Shown: piece by piece, positions 1 through 25,194 of the stretch | Layout of the letters: every line of letters begins with the position of its first letter | How positions within the stretch are numbered: position 1 is the first letter of the stretch | Assembly (NCBI GenBank): GCA_023261595.1 | Contig: JAHFOQ010000007.1 | Coordinates: 1 to 43,623, forward strand | Direction: 5' to 3' | DNA from: a bacterium | GTDB lineage: Bacteria; Patescibacteriota; Saccharimonadia; CAILAD01; BJGX01 | DNA length: 43,623 nt | Notes under the pieces: model-generated | What the model saw: the letters and a program-made list of their open reading frames with translations, nothing else | What the model was told of the DNA's origin: nothing | Database searches by the model: none | Position numbers and translations under genes: made by a program

Positions 1-1113
1 AAAAAAGGAACCGTTTGTAACATTAGCGTTTAATGCGTTAGCAATAGAGATAGTACCTGTGCCAGGATTTTCAATTAAACCTCCGACACCACTGGCAGTA
101 CTTATTGTGCCGCTATCATTGTTCTTTAGAAGCCCAAAAGTACCTGCAGCGGCATTAATAGTTCCGCTTGAGTTATTGAACGTATAGCCCAATACCCCAG
201 CCATAAGATTGATATTGCCAGTTCCTTCATGAATAGCTAGGCCGGTCTCACCCGCCAATCCACCATAGTTCTGTGGATTTCCACTCATTATCTCACCAGC
301 ATGGTATCCGCCAGTAAATAGCTCCGATACAGCTGATTGACCAAGATTGACAAAATATTCAGATGAGGCACCGGAGTAATAGTTGTATCCAGGAGTCAAC
401 GAAGTTACTACTTCTTGGGTACCGTTCACACGAATAATAGGTGTGCCGGTAAGTGGTGTAAGAATACTTGGATTATCTATTGCAGAAACATTTCCGAATG
501 CAGTGTGCCCTGTAAAATGCCCTGTACCATTTACATCTAGTGTAGTAACTGGTGATGGATTATTTATACCCACCTGACCGTTAGCCGTTACATTAACCAT
601 GGAGTATCCTGTTGCATTCTGCAGTTGCAGCAAGTCTACTGCTTGGTCACTATTACCACGTATAGTACCACCGACAACGTATGGGCTACTTGGCTGAATT
701 ACAAATTCTTTCGCACTCTGTAATAGGGTTGAATTACAAATTACCTGGGCACTACATCCGCCCGTATAATAATTGGTAAAATAATCTCCAGCCCCGTTCG
801 AAATACTTACATTAGAATTCTGATCTGACGTAATAGTACCAGTAACATGTAAATCACCATTAATTGTAGCGCTGCCTTCAACAGTAAGTTGACCTGTGGT
901 AGTAGTCACCCCTTGCTTTAAGTAGTCTCCCGTATCAATTCTGCCAGAGTAATTTCTCGAACTTAAATCATCAATCTTAGCCGTGTATTGTTTCCACCAA
1001 AAAAACAAAATTACTAAAATAATTCCTGTGGTTATAAGTAATAACCAAGTAGTAACTTTTAACCAAGTTGGTGTAACAATTTCTTCTACCTGTTCTTCGG
1101 GCATATACTTCAC
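1..1113 (-). CDS. Membrane-anchored fibre/adhesin-like protein, truncated at the window start (C-terminus outside); absent from the ORF track
   Basis: Manual minus-strand translation from GTG at 1113: MKYMPEEQVEEIVTPTWLKVTTWLLLITTGIILVILFFWWKQY..., open to position 1. N-terminus and promoter nearly identical to the 1170-3185 gene. Glycine-rich ~18-20 aa repeats (GTINAAAGTFGLLKNNDS / GTISTASGVGGLIENPGT). Confidence 0.85.
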   Translation of the reverse strand, partial: MKYMPEEQVEEIVTPTWLKVTTWLLLITTGIILVILFFWWKQYTAKIDDLSSRNYSGRIDTGDYLKQGVTTTTGQLTVEGSATINGDLHVTGTITSDQNSNVSISNGAGDYFTNYYTGGCSAQVICNSTLLQSAKEFVIQPSSPYVVGGTIRGNSDQAVDLLQLQNATGYSMVNVTANGQVGINNPSPVTTLDVNGTGHFTGHTAFGNVSAIDNPSILTPLTGTPIIRVNGTQEVVTSLTPGYNYYSGASSEYFVNLGQSAVSELFTGGYHAGEIMSGNPQNYGGLAGETGLAIHEGTGNINLMAGVLGYTFNNSSGTINAAAGTFGLLKNNDSGTISTASGVGGLIENPGTGTISIANALNANVTNGSFF

Positions 1114-1170
1114 ACTTCTCTTATACTAATAGTATAGAGGTTATGGTTATACAGCGTCAAGCAAAGGGTC
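1114..1170 (-). promoter_or_regulatory. Sigma70-type promoter of fibre gene 1
   Basis: Minus strand TTGACG-18 nt-TATACT then ATTAGTATAAGAGAA before GTG. Confidence 0.6.
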
Positions 1171-3185
1171 TACGGATTCACTACAGATGAGGACGGAGGG
1201 GTAGAAGGTATCTGCTGTTTCTTAAGTTCTTTCACCTCAGCTTCGAGAGCATCTATACGCTGTTCGTGATCATCTACAACTCCACTAAGTTTTTTAAGAT
1301 CTGCTGTGAGAGTATCAAGTTGTAGACCTTTATCTACTAATTGCTTGTTTATCTGATCTAGTTTGCCATTTTGTTCTTGAATAGCAGACACAATGTATGG
1401 AATCATACCTTCTTTATTCAAATTAAGATAGCCGTTAACATCTTTGCCTACCAAATCGGGTAGTATTTTTTGTACTTCTTGGGCAATAAATCCTGCAATA
1501 GGGGCGGAATCTGGGCTTGATCTAAAATTATAGGTAACTCCTCTTAACTGCATAATTGTATCAAGACTATCATTAAGTGTAACGATATTTGTTTTAAGTC
1601 GCTCATCCGAAGTACAATTCCAACCACCGGGGCCAGAGGTATCCACAATACAAGTCTGGGTAGTTCCGGTAAATGCTGCTGTGGTATCAGTTGAAGTATC
1701 GGTAACTTCAAAACGATGAGTAGGATTGGCTTGGTTTATACCTACCTTACCACCAAATAATCCAATAACATTCGCATTGCTCATTGTTACCGGTGTAGTG
1801 TCGTCTACATTCAGGCCAAACGAATTATCGGCAGTTGCATCAATCGTTAAGTTTTGGCCAATAGCGAATGATTTATCTCCATTTATTTGAATACCGACCC
1901 CCATACCTAAAGAGTTTTCACCGCTAATTCCACTGCTTTTACCAATTAACGCTGCAAAACCATTGCCGGTAACGGTATTGCTTTCACCTAATACAAGTAC
2001 ATCTGGAGCTGTGACATTATTATCATTACCTACTACAAAAATATTTTCTTGGCGAATTAAGCGCTGTACTGGACATATAAGAGCGTCCGAGCTAAGACAT
2101 AGCTCTTCGCCGACGACATTATTTTTCCCTATTGCTGTTGAGTGATTAGATTCCAGGTCATTACATTCACCAACGTTAAAACTATTATCTCCCTCTGTTT
2201 TTGTAAAACAGGTACCTGGTCCAAAAAAATTCAATCTACCTAGTCCAATACTGGCTGAGTAGGTACCGTTCATCTGGTTTAGCCCACCAAGAGCTATATT
2301 GCCTGTTCCCCCATTACCATAATTGTGATCTGGATCTGCTACAAGTGGTCCAATAACATTAAATGCTCCAAGGCTCGTACTAAACTGTCCTTCAACATCG
2401 CTTAATGCCCCAATAGCCACCGATAATGGACCTCTTGCAGCAACATCATAACCAATTGCCATAGAGCTTAAGCCAATATTGGCATCGTCCCATAATGTAC
2501 CTGCAGCAAAATTATTACCACCATATGGACTAAAATCTAAGGGATAATCATCAATTTCGCCAGCTCTTAGAGCAACTTTTTTCGGGTACCAAAACAATCT
2601 GTTTCCTGGCCCACTAATGCTTATTGGATTTCCTGGGCCTTCTTGCAAACTCAATACATCCGCAAATGCACCTACTGCAATTAAGCTTCCATTATTTGCA
2701 GATGCATCTAAATACAGGTCATATCCACCTTGTGGGATAGAAGTATTGTGTAACAGTGGATTAACCCCCATCTCTAGAGTGGAGCCAGCGAGTACCACAC
2801 CATTTTGCGCATACGCTACACCTACACCTCCGCTCGCGCCAGAAGTTCCTGTTGATCCGTTAATTCCGGTATTTCCGGCTGGTCCCTGTGGACCTACAGC
2901 AGGTTGTAGCTGTGATGCAAGATTACCTATAACTCCCGATAAATCTACACTATTTCCATTAGATAGTGACAATTCGGTTCCGTTGAGTTTTAGGTCTTGC
3001 CGTTTCATTGAAGACGAAGTATCGCTACTTATTCCATCTGACTTAAGAACAGAAAAGTATTTTTGCCACCAGAAAAAGAGAATTATTAAAATAATTCCAG
3101 TGGTTATCAGTAACAACCAAGTTGTAATTTTCAACCAAGTTGGGGTAACAATCTCTGCTACCTGTTCTTCGGGCATATATTCCAC
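1170..3185 (-). CDS. Membrane-anchored trimeric-fibre-like protein: N-terminal TM, collagen-like GXX segment, YadA-like head repeats, C-terminal peptidase S74 chaperone domain
   Basis: TM helix WLLLITTGIILIILFFWW; GPQGPAGNTGINGSTGTSGASGG; repeats SMAIGYDVAARG / SVAIGALSDVEG / STAIGKNNVVG; SDERLKTNI...GFIAQEVQKILPDLV...IPYIVSAIQEQN typical of S74; coiled-coil tail. GTG start. Confidence 0.85.
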   Translation of the reverse strand: MEYMPEEQVAEIVTPTWLKITTWLLLITTGIILIILFFWWQKYFSVLKSDGISSDTSSSMKRQDLKLNGTELSLSNGNSVDLSGVIGNLASQLQPAVGPQGPAGNTGINGSTGTSGASGGVGVAYAQNGVVLAGSTLEMGVNPLLHNTSIPQGGYDLYLDASANNGSLIAVGAFADVLSLQEGPGNPISISGPGNRLFWYPKKVALRAGEIDDYPLDFSPYGGNNFAAGTLWDDANIGLSSMAIGYDVAARGPLSVAIGALSDVEGQFSTSLGAFNVIGPLVADPDHNYGNGGTGNIALGGLNQMNGTYSASIGLGRLNFFGPGTCFTKTEGDNSFNVGECNDLESNHSTAIGKNNVVGEELCLSSDALICPVQRLIRQENIFVVGNDNNVTAPDVLVLGESNTVTGNGFAALIGKSSGISGENSLGMGVGIQINGDKSFAIGQNLTIDATADNSFGLNVDDTTPVTMSNANVIGLFGGKVGINQANPTHRFEVTDTSTDTTAAFTGTTQTCIVDTSGPGGWNCTSDERLKTNIVTLNDSLDTIMQLRGVTYNFRSSPDSAPIAGFIAQEVQKILPDLVGKDVNGYLNLNKEGMIPYIVSAIQEQNGKLDQINKQLVDKGLQLDTLTADLKKLSGVVDDHEQRIDALEAEVKELKKQQIPSTPPSSSVVNP

Positions 3186-3240
3186 ATTTCTCTTATAGCA
3201 ATAGTATAGAGGTTATGGTTATGAAAGGTCAAATAAATAG
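3186..3240 (-). promoter_or_regulatory. Sigma70-type promoter of fibre gene 2, near-identical to that of gene 1
   Basis: Minus strand TTGACC-18 nt-TATACT; shared ATAACCATAACCTCTATACTATT. Confidence 0.6.
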
Positions 3241-3241
3241 T

Positions 3242-5068
3242 TTACGATTTTTTACGTACTGCTCTATCGATTGGAGCAAACAATTTTGCAAAGGCAGGAC
3301 CTTCGAGAGTTTCTTTTTCAATGAGAGTCTTAGCGATAAGATCAAGTTTTTTGCGATTCTTGCGAATAGTATCTTCGGCTTTCTTGCTTGCTTCATTAAT
3401 AAGCTTAGCAACTTCGCCGTCAATTACTGCAGCCATTTCTTCTGAATAGTTTCTGCCTTCACCCATACTCCGCCCTAAGAAAACCGATCCGTCTCCATCA
3501 CCAAAGAAACGGTTTTTAAGTTTTTCGCTCATACCATATTCTGTAACCATTCGTTTTGCCAATTCGTTTGCATGTTTAAGGTCGCTTTCAGCACCAGTAG
3601 TAATATTTTCTTCTCCAAAAACGAGTTTTTCTGCACTACGTCCACCAAGGCTCATGGCAAGATCATCTTTAAAGTCAGCTATTGAATGTAAATGTTTATC
3701 TTCTTCTGGCAGACTCCACGTTACCCCGCCAGCCATACCGCGGCTCACAATAGATACTTTATGTACAGGATGACATTTTGGCAATAAGTGGCTGAGTAAT
3801 GCGTGGCCTGCTTCATGATAAGCAGTCAATTTCTTTTCTTCATCATTAAGAATATGGCTTTTACGTTCTGGGCCAAGCGCAATCTTTTCTACAGCTTCAT
3901 GGAAATCAGCTTGAACAAGTTTTTTACGATTTGAACGAGCTGCAAAAATAGCTGCTTCATTAGCAATATTAGCTAGGTCTGCACCAGACACACCTGGTGT
4001 TTTACGGGCAATTTCACCTAGTTTAACTGAATTATCGAGCGGTTTATTCTTGGTATGTACTTCTAGTATTTGTTCTCGAGCTTTCATGTCGGGAGCATCG
4101 AGAGTAATACGTCGATCGAATCGACCGGGACGAAGTAACGCTGGGTCAAGAACATCTGGTCGGTTAGTAGCTGCCATTACAATCACATTTGTACCTTGTT
4201 CGAAACCATCCATTTCTACTAAGATTTGGTTTAGGGTTTGTTCGCGCTCATCATGACCACCACCAAGGCCAGCACCACGCTGACGACCTACTGCATCAAT
4301 CTCATCAATAAATATAATACATGGAGCATTCTTTTTTGCTTTCCCGAACAGGTCGCGCACACGGCTTGCACCAACCCCAACAAACATTTCTACAAACTCA
4401 GAACCAGAAATAGAAAAGAATGGAACATCGGCTTCGCCTGCTACTGCTCGAGCCAGAAGTGTTTTACCGGTGCCAGGAGATCCAAATAGCAACACACCTT
4501 TTGGAATCTTTGCTCCTAGTGCTTCGAATTTAGCAGGGTACTTTAGGAACTCAACGATTTCTTCTAGTTCAGTTTTAGCTTCGATTGCACCTGCAACATC
4601 GCTAAACTTAACTTTTTCTTTTTCTAAACCAAATACGCGGGCTTTACTTTTACCAAAGCTCATAGCTTGGTTATTGCTTCCCTGTGCTTGACGCATAATA
4701 AAGTAAAAGAACCCGATAATAAGTGCAATAGGTAAGACGGTTAGGAGAAAATCGAATATTTTTGTAAGACCAGTTTCGGTGTTTTTCGCCTCAACCTTTA
4801 TCTTTGTATAATCGATACCATAATCTTTAAGAGTTGTATTTGATTCTTTTAGGCTTTCTTCTTTCGTGCCATCTTTTAATGTAATGGTAAGGTTATCACC
4901 TGAGACATCTATTTTATCAATCTGGCCAGCATTTGCCTGTTCGATCATCTTACTAATACTAACTTGTGCAGTTTTTGGTTCACTAAAATTTGCATAAGCA
5001 AGTAACCCGCCTAGAATAACGAGCGCAGCTACAATATAAAAAACTTGTCGTGGTATTTTCTTCATCAT
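3242..5068 (-). CDS. ftsH: ATP-dependent zinc metalloprotease FtsH
   Basis: Walker [29 protein letters not shown] zinc motif, N-terminal TM helices. Confidence 0.97.
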
Positions 5069-22708: not shown

Positions 22709-24373
22709 CTAATGACGTGAGGTGTTCTTTACCGAAGTTTTACTTGGTTTATTAAAAAACTCCAAGCCCTTTGCGGTTGATAATATTTCTTTCAATTCTT
22801 TTTGATGGGTTACTATATAACAAAAACTAGAAATTTTACGTGGCAGTGTAGCTTCTTGAGAAAATAACTTCATTAACTCTTTCGTATTTTCAAAGCCCGC
22901 TAATTTTATCATGTTATTAGTGCAATCTGCATATTGTACTGCTTCGGCAAAACCACGACCCATATCTTCCCCATAAGCGTTTGTTATATAAACTGCTCCT
23001 TCGTTATATTGCGACCCATTGGCGAAGTAATTTGTCTGAGCTACGGGCACGATTTGATGAAGTTCGAAACTTCGAATATCTTCTGGTAAAGTTTCATCAA
23101 AAGTAAATTTCCAATGGTTTGGATGCCAAGTGTTTGTTATGGGATAAAGTTTCGGGTTAGGGCTCACCTCACTTTTTACCCATTGATCAATTTCTAATGT
23201 ACCCCAAGTATTATGCAGTTTCTTGTTTTCGTCCATGTATTTACCGGCTACATCAACTGTCATTGTGCCTGGTGGTGTTGCCCCGGTTTGAAAATAGAAG
23301 TTCTTATTAGTAGGACTATGGGAAGCAAACATTGTTAACTGCCTATTACCTATAAACTGGGCCATATACCAATCCCAACCCATTTGCATGGGTTTACCAA
23401 TATTGTTTGCAGCTCGCAATACTGCAGAACGTGAGTTTCCACCCAAGAAACCCCATTGGTGATCAAACCAAAATGAACCCTTTCTCAGAGTTATTTTCCT
23501 TCCATTGTAGGTAATTGTACTTCCAGGCTTGAGAACAAGATTTGGTATCGAGTAATATAGTGTTCCCATTCCAGCCACACATGGCATACATCCATCATCT
23601 CCCTGAAATAAATATTCTCTCCCTTGTGTAAATTCTAAATCTACACCTAACTTAACTGCTTTAGCTTCTCCATTATCATTACCTTGAGCTCTTACTGTAA
23701 TAGGAAAGAGTGATCCTTTTTTTAAGCTTTTAATATAATTTTTACCAATTGTGTATTCTAGTGGGTTGGCAGTAACATCAATCAACCCCGTTGTTCCTGC
23801 AATCACTGTCGGTTCGGCTTGATAGTGCCTTTCTCCAGCTTTTGAGATTCCTAACTGAATTTCTACAACCTGATTTTCAATATCACTTATACCAAAATTT
23901 TTAGCAATGCTTGGCGGCAGGAGCGAAACCCGAAAAAACATTAGCTCAATCCCATATTCATCTCCATTTTCATCCCACCCACTCCCAACAAAGAAATGCC
24001 ATCCTACCTGGCTCTGTAATTGTGGGGCATGGTCTTGTGGAAATTTGAAGTTAGCTTGTGTAGGCATTAATTCATATCCTTGCGTTGCATTCTGACCTAA
24101 GAGCTTCATTGCAATTACATATGCTGCTTGTGGGTTCAAATCTCCAATAAGACTATGTAATAATTTATAGCGTTTAGTGTAATTAGGATTATGACTTTGT
24201 GGATGATCACTAAGCCAAGCAAGGTAATCTCGCATACGTTTACCAATTTCAGATGATGAATTTTTTATTGAGTTAATTTGGGTCAAAACATTAGCGTCTA
24301 TTTCTTTTTCGTTGTATTCATCAAGCCAAAGTGCGGCTGCAATATTTCGTTTTGTGTTTTGGTCAATATTCAT
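22709..24373 (-). CDS. Lipocalin-like / CrtC-AttH family (carotenoid 1,2-hydratase-like) protein
   Basis: YSIPNLVLKPGSTITYNGRKITLRKGSFWFDHQWGF...MGWDWYMAQFIGNRQLTMF, the CrtC/AttH lipocalin pattern. Confidence 0.75.
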   Translation of the reverse strand: MNIDQNTKRNIAAALWLDEYNEKEIDANVLTQINSIKNSSSEIGKRMRDYLAWLSDHPQSHNPNYTKRYKLLHSLIGDLNPQAAYVIAMKLLGQNATQGYELMPTQANFKFPQDHAPQLQSQVGWHFFVGSGWDENGDEYGIELMFFRVSLLPPSIAKNFGISDIENQVVEIQLGISKAGERHYQAEPTVIAGTTGLIDVTANPLEYTIGKNYIKSLKKGSLFPITVRAQGNDNGEAKAVKLGVDLEFTQGREYLFQGDDGCMPCVAGMGTLYYSIPNLVLKPGSTITYNGRKITLRKGSFWFDHQWGFLGGNSRSAVLRAANNIGKPMQMGWDWYMAQFIGNRQLTMFASHSPTNKNFYFQTGATPPGTMTVDVAGKYMDENKKLHNTWGTLEIDQWVKSEVSPNPKLYPITNTWHPNHWKFTFDETLPEDIRSFELHQIVPVAQTNYFANGSQYNEGAVYITNAYGEDMGRGFAEAVQYADCTNNMIKLAGFENTKELMKLFSQEATLPRKISSFCYIVTHQKELKEILSTAKGLEFFNKPSKTSVKNTSRH

Positions 24374-24375
24374 TG

Positions 24376-25194
24376 CTAATGAAAACCTTTCGTCGTTAGT
24401 AGTCGTAAGGTGGCTATGAGCGCAACTGTCCCCATACCAAAGAGCGCAATCAGCGCAAGGTTTTGTTGCAGTACGGTTGGGTTAGGAGTTACCTCTTTTA
24501 TGACAATAGAAAATGCACTAGCAGAAAAAAGTATTATTGGTTCAAATAAAAATACTTTACTCGGTTTTGCTAAATAATCATGCGGTTTTGACCTCCACCA
24601 AAGATATAATCCAATAACCACAAAGAATGTAAAAGTAACGAAAAACCACCCGGTAAAGTTTCGAAATGGTTCACCAAAATATGCTCCGCCTTTTTGCCAT
24701 GTCCATAAATGTTGAACAATTGACGAAGTAGGGTCAAAACTCATATCCCAAATTACCATAAATACTGCAGATAATGTTGCGATACCCAAGACCATCCAGC
24801 CGGTTATCTTTTTATATGAACCAAGTATAATGCGCGACAATATATAACAAGTATAGCCCATAGAAACATAACTAAAGGTAACGAGAGGTGGTACTCCACC
24901 AACGAGAAAACCATTTACGTTTGGGCTGGGATTATAATAATAATTACCAAATATTACTCCTGTATGAACTCCGAGGTATTCACCAAGAAATCCAATTGCC
25001 ATAATTATAAGAAACATAATAGTTATATGTACCCAACCAAAGTATTTTCCCCCGTGAAGAAAAACAAAAGTAATTGGTAAAAGAAAAATAACGAGCGATA
25101 ACAACGGATTTTTTATAAGATAAACATTTGTAACTGCAATAACTATGAGAATTGTCCAGCGCAGGATATCGAGACGTGAGATTTTTTTTAGCAT
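24376..25194 (-). CDS. CruF-like carotenoid biosynthesis (DUF422) membrane protein
   Basis: GFLGEYLGVHTGVIFGNYYY, MVIWDMSFDP, WTWQKGGAYFGEPFRNFTGWF. Confidence 0.75.
   Translation of the reverse strand: MLKKISRLDILRWTILIVIAVTNVYLIKNPLLSLVIFLLPITFVFLHGGKYFGWVHITIMFLIIMAIGFLGEYLGVHTGVIFGNYYYNPSPNVNGFLVGGVPPLVTFSYVSMGYTCYILSRIILGSYKKITGWMVLGIATLSAVFMVIWDMSFDPTSSIVQHLWTWQKGGAYFGEPFRNFTGWFFVTFTFFVVIGLYLWWRSKPHDYLAKPSKVFLFEPIILFSASAFSIVIKEVTPNPTVLQQNLALIALFGMGTVALIATLRLLTTKGFH

Follow-up and report, generated by a model that had tools for sequence, protein, structure and literature searches.

The window analysed here, a stretch of 43,623 nucleotides that comprises an entire contig (C23) of a saccharibacterium with a reduced genome, contains a gene (gene A) whose product we consider, with fairly high confidence, to be a trimeric cell-surface fibre nucleated by an S74 domain, probably cut before Ser526 and acting as a mosaic adhesin that holds a host cell or surface. 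The safest statement is that gene A encodes a cellular, S74-processed, mosaic contact fibre. The analysis adds to the first-pass annotation of this DNA that the fibre belongs to a gene family and that several genes of this family are linked to F1-like ATPase operons. The source genome (G000) is 798 kb in 42 contigs and 93% complete, consistent with the reduced cell that the first-pass annotation had proposed, and the nearest named relative of the window locus is a Candidatus Saccharibacteria MAG. The bacterium is tiny and probably has a parasitic lifestyle.

The gene A open reading frame (ORF) encodes 671 amino acids from a GTG start at position 3185, with an alternative ATG start at 3176, three codons inside the GTG. 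From the N to the C terminus, the protein consists of a short stretch, a transmembrane (TM) segment, a Gly-X-Y segment, head repeats, a neck, the S74 domain, a long helix, and a Pro/Ser tail. The corresponding features are as follows.

1170-3185, minus strand: fibre gene A, encoding an anchor, collagen-like segment, head repeats, neck, S74 domain and C-terminal helix.
3066-3128, minus strand: predicted TM signal-anchor, residues ~20-40, TTWLLLITTGIILIILFFWW.
2814-2894, minus strand: collagen-like segment of nine Gly-X-Y triplets, residues 98-124, from a shuffle test, with Pfam Collagen sub-threshold.
1851-2468, minus strand: YadA-head-like repeats with a period of ~14 residues, residues ~240-445, from a motif count and from Pfam YadA_head in paralogues.
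1611-1769, minus strand: neck, residues 473-525, before the predicted cleavage site, with Cys512 (1650-1652) and Cys524 (1614-1616).
1449-1610, minus strand: S74/ICA domain, residues 526-579, with Ser526 (1608-1610) and Lys531 (1593-1595) as the predicted dyad.
1212-1415, minus strand: C-terminal long helix, residues 591-658, from an AF2 model with a pLDDT of ~98 there.

The modules that the first-pass annotation had read from the letters, namely an N-terminal TM anchor, a collagen-like GXX segment, and AIG/SLG head repeats, were all recovered. The anchor is also present in the neighbouring gene B and in the fibre at the FtsH locus of G001; the charges on either side of it leave the topology unfixed, and an orientation with the N terminus inside and the fibre outside is the presumed one. 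The nine Gly-X-Y triplets are consecutive, and runs of at least eight occurred in 0 of 20,000 shuffles, though the Pfam Collagen match was sub-threshold (E value of 0.06) and the run is broken in the gene A orthologue. The head motif [AVSLFM][ILVM]G occurs 14 times in residues 216-480, versus 3.7 expected (0 of 10,000 shuffles), and many of the AIG/SLG motifs are spaced 14 residues apart. Pfam YadA_head had no match in gene A and a sub-threshold one in the orthologue (0.0013), and was clear in paralogues (3.7e-30, and 1.9e-6 within the same genome). Head repeats would be the feature in common with the YadA trimeric autotransporter adhesins; a Pfam scan of gene A found no match to the YadA C-terminal translocator barrel, and the S74 domain and helix occupy that end. 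The S74 domain, which had been placed at the C terminus, is present but does not form the extreme C terminus, since a helix of ~68 residues follows it.

The identification of the S74 domain is supported by profile, structure, and motif. The Pfam check proposed in the first-pass annotation was run, and PF13884 matched gene A with an E value of 2.3e-16 (60.2 bits, cut-off of 22) and with 5.1e-18 in the genome-wide scan. A profile search of solved structures retrieved S16 gp37 (2e-20), a tail fibre (8jov; 3e-19), and the MyRF ICA domain (2e-15), as well as an L-shaped tail fibre and the GA-1 neck appendage. The AF2 model, based on a 73-sequence alignment that took the place of a three-sequence one (pLDDT of 45.6, discarded), had a pLDDT of 85, and Foldseek found the MyRF ICA domain (7dc3; 8e-6) as its best match, followed by 3gw6 and 3gud. 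The motif is SDERLK, and all 73 aligned sequences have the Ser, Asp, and Lys of SDxxLK. Together, the Pfam, profile, and fold matches and the invariant motif make self-cleavage before Ser526 through a Ser526-Lys531 dyad likely. The C-terminal helix is a probable trimeric coiled coil. Trimerisation, surface exposure, and host contact are suggested by family and motif.

On this basis, the signal-anchor would keep the gene A protein in the cytoplasmic membrane, and the collagen-like stretch, YadA-type head repeats, and neck would assemble outside the cell as a parallel trimer. The S74 domain and the coiled coil would nucleate trimerisation of the chains, and once three chains are in register, the Ser526-Lys531 dyad would probably cut before Ser526, leaving residues 1-525 as the mature fibre, the end of which a Cys512-Cys524 disulphide would pin just before the cut. 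A Cys at position -2 from the S74 Ser is found in 21 of 34 saccharibacterial copies and in none of the 88 viral ones. Saccharibacterial and viral S74 proteins also differ in how far the Ser lies from the C terminus (medians of 215 and 98 residues, respectively), and several paralogues carry a further conserved domain, the tip domain, C-terminal to S74; cleavage there would therefore free the tip unless the pieces stay joined. Both the long distance and the conserved tip of many paralogues would suit a permanent trimerisation cap that is not cut, in which case the mature form would be the full-length fibre including the coiled coil. However, the dyad is retained in nearly all copies, gene A included, and an S74 domain with the same motif in the Bdellovibrio MAT fibres cleaves (PMC10769870), and we regard the uncut cap as unlikely.

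The preferred reading, a cleaved contact fibre, has its nearest counterpart in these MAT fibres, the predator contact fibres of Bdellovibrio bacteriovorus, which carry S74 and include Bd3182, a protein that cuts itself at the SDxxxK serine (PMC10769870). As described, MAT fibres such as Bd3182 have a modular body and a C-terminal S74 domain with SDxxxK, like gene A, and like the gene A family they occur several per genome with a conserved base and a variable tip (PMC10769870). They belong to a bacterium that attacks bacteria, and the gene A fibre would resemble them in function. In contrast to gene A, MAT fibres begin with a signal peptide followed by a beta domain of ~130 amino acids and belong to an outer-membrane bacterium (PMC10769870), whereas gene A has an uncleaved-looking TM signal-anchor and a Cys pair before the cut, and in its family S74 is followed by a long helix or tip and relatives lie beside F1-like ATPase operons. 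Phage S74 chaperones (K1F endosialidase, 3gw6; GA-1 neck appendage, 3gud; S16 gp37, 6f45) share the domain, fold, and dyad, but viral S74 copies end ~98 residues past the Ser and have no Cys at -2. MyRF, the best fold match, likewise has its S74/ICA domain in a membrane-anchored cellular protein; however, it releases a transcription factor (PMC3742443, PMC8326128), whereas gene A probably encodes an N-terminally anchored surface fibre.

As tail fibres typically contain S74 and collagen-like segments, gene A might be taken for the remnant of a prophage or tailocin tail fibre. As the first-pass annotation had noted, no phage genes surround it: none of the 28 other window proteins scanned matched a phage-related Pfam family, the left flank ending with the contig. 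The neighbours are housekeeping genes, including those for FtsH, TilS, DivIC, ABC transporters, DHODH, LexA, and malic enzyme, among others. In addition, the protein has an N-terminal TM anchor, and S74 is present in 6 of 13 genomes of the family, with 1 to 7 copies per genome. A remnant was thus rejected on gene context and is highly improbable. In the S74 tree, which is unrooted and short and includes 73 viral rows drawn from the best 80 viral scan matches, the window copy groups with saccharibacterial rows (20 rows, weak support of 86/56), with an inner group of 13 saccharibacterial rows at 96/83, and 65 viral rows form their own group (97/92). Recent phage transfer was rejected on this placement; the tree argues against it and says little of the first origin, and because it is unrooted and short, an old exchange in either direction is possible. 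A viral sequence scan with the entire gene A protein gave no match. In total, 24 of 295 genomes of the class Saccharimonadia had S74 matches, and together with the tree this weakens the earlier description of the domain as phage derived. In other Saccharibacteria (L149, L150, L151, L154, and L155), S74 with SDxRLK was also observed at or near the C terminus of polytopic proteins in apparent type IV secretion loci. A separate observation in the window is the presence at 22709-25194 of CrtC-like and carotenoid-biosynthesis-type genes (Pfam scans), unexpected for a reduced genome.

Gene A is one of several mosaic fibres in its own genome, which contains five S74 genes. The elements next to it are as follows.

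1-1113, minus strand: fibre gene B, downstream of gene A, truncated by the contig end at 371 amino acids.
3057-3246, minus strand: promoter and anchor-coding block, with TTGACC (3227-3232), an 18-bp gap, and TATACT (3203-3208).
3242-5068, minus strand: FtsH (Pfam scan), the upstream neighbour of gene A, given as context and outside the fibre system.

The promoter is sigma70-like, and the promoter and anchor block is copied at 985-1174 (85% over 190 nt), which means that gene B shares promoter and anchor with gene A through duplication. The sequenced part of gene B matches a complete S74 fibre of the G001 FtsH locus (L078:7706-9874) at 78% and its counterpart in the related MAG G010 (L006:12864-14660) at 70%, and its C terminus, which lies beyond the contig, should by homology be an S74 domain. 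The gene A orthologue is L006:10765-12780 of G010 (56% over 702 columns). G010 keeps the A-B order, and the pair there comes after another S74 fibre and an ATPase operon. The FtsH-fibre gene order is also found in G001 (L078), where housekeeping ORFs (MurJ-like and LepA-like) lie beyond the gene B counterpart; this genome of the same genus (2.2 Mb, 630 contigs, 5% contamination) is probably a mixed bin and was treated cautiously. The members of the family have a common anchor and promoter and differ in their bodies, much as the Bdellovibrio MAT fibres do (PMC10769870). These mosaic adhesins would combine a shared anchor and processing module with different bodies and tips and would most likely grip a host cell or surface; the family, perhaps including gene A, may work with an F1-like ATPase. 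A 2,921-amino-acid protein with S74 and tip (L077:3109-11874; G000:C16) was also observed, with no adjoining ATPase operon.

Two F1-like operons followed by S74 fibres were found in the source genome.

L074 (G000:C40:1-10183): alpha- and beta-like (PF00006), gamma-like, and c-like genes, with S74 fibres after them.
L075 (G000:C13:1-17511): alpha- and beta-like, gamma-like (PF00231), delta-like, b-like, and c-like genes, with S74 fibres after them.

The genome has four PF00006 matches in all, every one of them in these operons, and the C13 delta-like protein scored just below the PF00213 cut-off. The beta-like protein can be aligned with F1 beta over its full length (E value of ~1e-100), and its Walker A stretch is retained. 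In the c-like protein, a start resembling a signal peptide is combined with an extracytoplasmic domain and a TM hairpin whose loop reads GRNP, and this protein matched canonical c subunits of the class with an E value of 3.4e-7 (probability of 93%; profile comparison, single-template test); a rotating c ring is suggested by this homology. The canonical c copies examined have Glu/Asp 17 to 18 residues past the loop, whereas an acid in TM2 is absent from 42 of 42 c-like proteins and from 12 of other classes. Neither an a subunit (PF00119) nor a canonical c subunit (PF00137) was found in G000, G001, G004 (99% complete), or G010. By the missing a subunit in these four genomes and the missing acid-bearing c, the linked operons are not canonical ATP synthases, and the rotary ATPase appears unable to pump ions. 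Scans with the c-like alignment found no viral relatives and a PDB profile match at chance level (E value of 0.59), and a sub-threshold phage minor-capsid profile for the extracytoplasmic domain was dropped. Upstream of operon I, a surface protein (L074:1-1527, L006:385-2724) has an LPQTG-like motif, a TM segment, and a basic tail at its end.

Operons of this a-less F1-like kind are widely distributed among Saccharibacteria and are also present outside the group. A c-like protein was found in 130 and PF00119 in 159 of the 295 class genomes, and many genomes therefore hold both a canonical a subunit and an a-less operon. Phylum-wide, 108 of 287 genomes had c-like matches, a large share of which are the extracytoplasmic domain alone within giant proteins; outside the class, several loci were confirmed to have a full-length copy next to ATPase genes. 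Among the giant ORFs, L268 and others carry this domain within surface-type proteins of other Patescibacteria. At L269, L270, and L271, two c-like genes in opposed orientation lie close to F1-like ATPase genes and to repeated surface-type proteins that are secreted or have a TM segment. Of 20 operon regions chosen by c-like matches alone, 13 had a tip-domain fibre nearby, 3 had a cut TM-anchored fibre-like ORF at the end, and 1 (L120) had a 2,440-amino-acid TM protein and no ATPase genes. Ten proteins from these regions went into the training of the second-round tip model; they had already been found at 3e-7 to 2e-4 by the first-round model, for which only S74 fibres were used, including one from these regions. 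The tip domain was present in 15 of 16 genomes with the operon versus 0 of 16 without (Fisher 5.7e-8, a nominal value given the relatedness of the genomes and the use of operon-linked proteins to build the model); in one large family, the figures were 8 of 9 and 0 of 11. An assignment of the tip as an H-type lectin was sub-threshold (E value of 0.06) and was dropped.

The co-occurrence raises the tentative reading that the gene A fibre belongs to a rotary surface apparatus powered by ATP, in which an a-less F1-like ATPase would turn a c ring that bears extracytoplasmic domains and acts on fibre trimers. Besides the S74 fibres after both operons of the source genome, three fibres come immediately after the c, alpha, gamma, and beta genes in G010, the gene A orthologue being the second of them, and operon-fibre neighbourhoods occur in other classes too (L272, L273). 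However, gene A in the window adjoins FtsH rather than an F1-like operon and the gene B orthologue is likewise placed in G001, so linkage is not obligatory; the tip domain is absent from the gene A protein; the remaining 3 of the 20 regions had no fibre; and the support is wholly genomic. The genomic lead is strong for the family working with an a-less F1-like motor and weaker for the gene A protein itself doing so, since this copy sits by FtsH and has no tip domain. In its broader form, which we hold to be possible but somewhat doubtful, Patescibacteria would have an undescribed ATP-driven surface machine, with the gene A fibre as one of its exchangeable fibres. The motor would be F-type (alpha, beta, gamma, usually delta and b, often epsilon) with no a subunit, and its c-like subunits would have lost the carboxylate that binds ions and would bear an extracytoplasmic domain. 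ATP hydrolysis would rotate the c ring, the outer crown of which would work on the membrane-anchored trimeric fibres encoded next to it.

The F1-like X0 ATPases of Mycoplasma offer a parallel, as they also occur in reduced, host-dependent bacteria with the motor tied to surface functions and not to ATP synthesis. They serve the MIB-MIP system (Type 3) and the gliding of M. mobile (PMC12994834, PMC11864180). No b, delta, or c homologues are recognised in the Mycoplasma clusters (PMC3369863), whereas b- and delta-like proteins are retained in the operons of Patescibacteria, together with an ion-dead c-like protein that has an extracytoplasmic domain. ProAD describes 20 F/N-type ATPases with ion-dead c subunits among sets having an a subunit, and a-less sets therefore fall outside its criterion (PMC11738941). 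A literature search, of incomplete coverage so that an earlier description is possible, found no account of Saccharibacteria with peptidase S74, a tail-fibre annotation, or an F1-like ATPase.

How Patescibacteria grip their hosts is poorly known, and pili, a secretion system, and adhesins have been implicated (PMC10633639, PMC11665869). S74 on predator contact fibres was already known from the Bdellovibrio MAT (PMC10769870), and the fibre family described here, together with this bacterial-predator parallel, provides a concrete, testable class of adhesins. Why Patescibacteria, which lack a respiratory chain, retain F-type ATPase genes is also an open question (PMC11665869), and a cultured saccharibacterium can do without its predicted ATP synthase (PMC10633639). 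The genomic tie between fibres and ATPases bears on the former and, if the operon of that strain is of the a-less type, on the latter. Fibres of this kind may be components of a surface machine driven by ATP, which, if true, would explain part of the F-type ATPase genes in fermenting bacteria without a respiratory chain.
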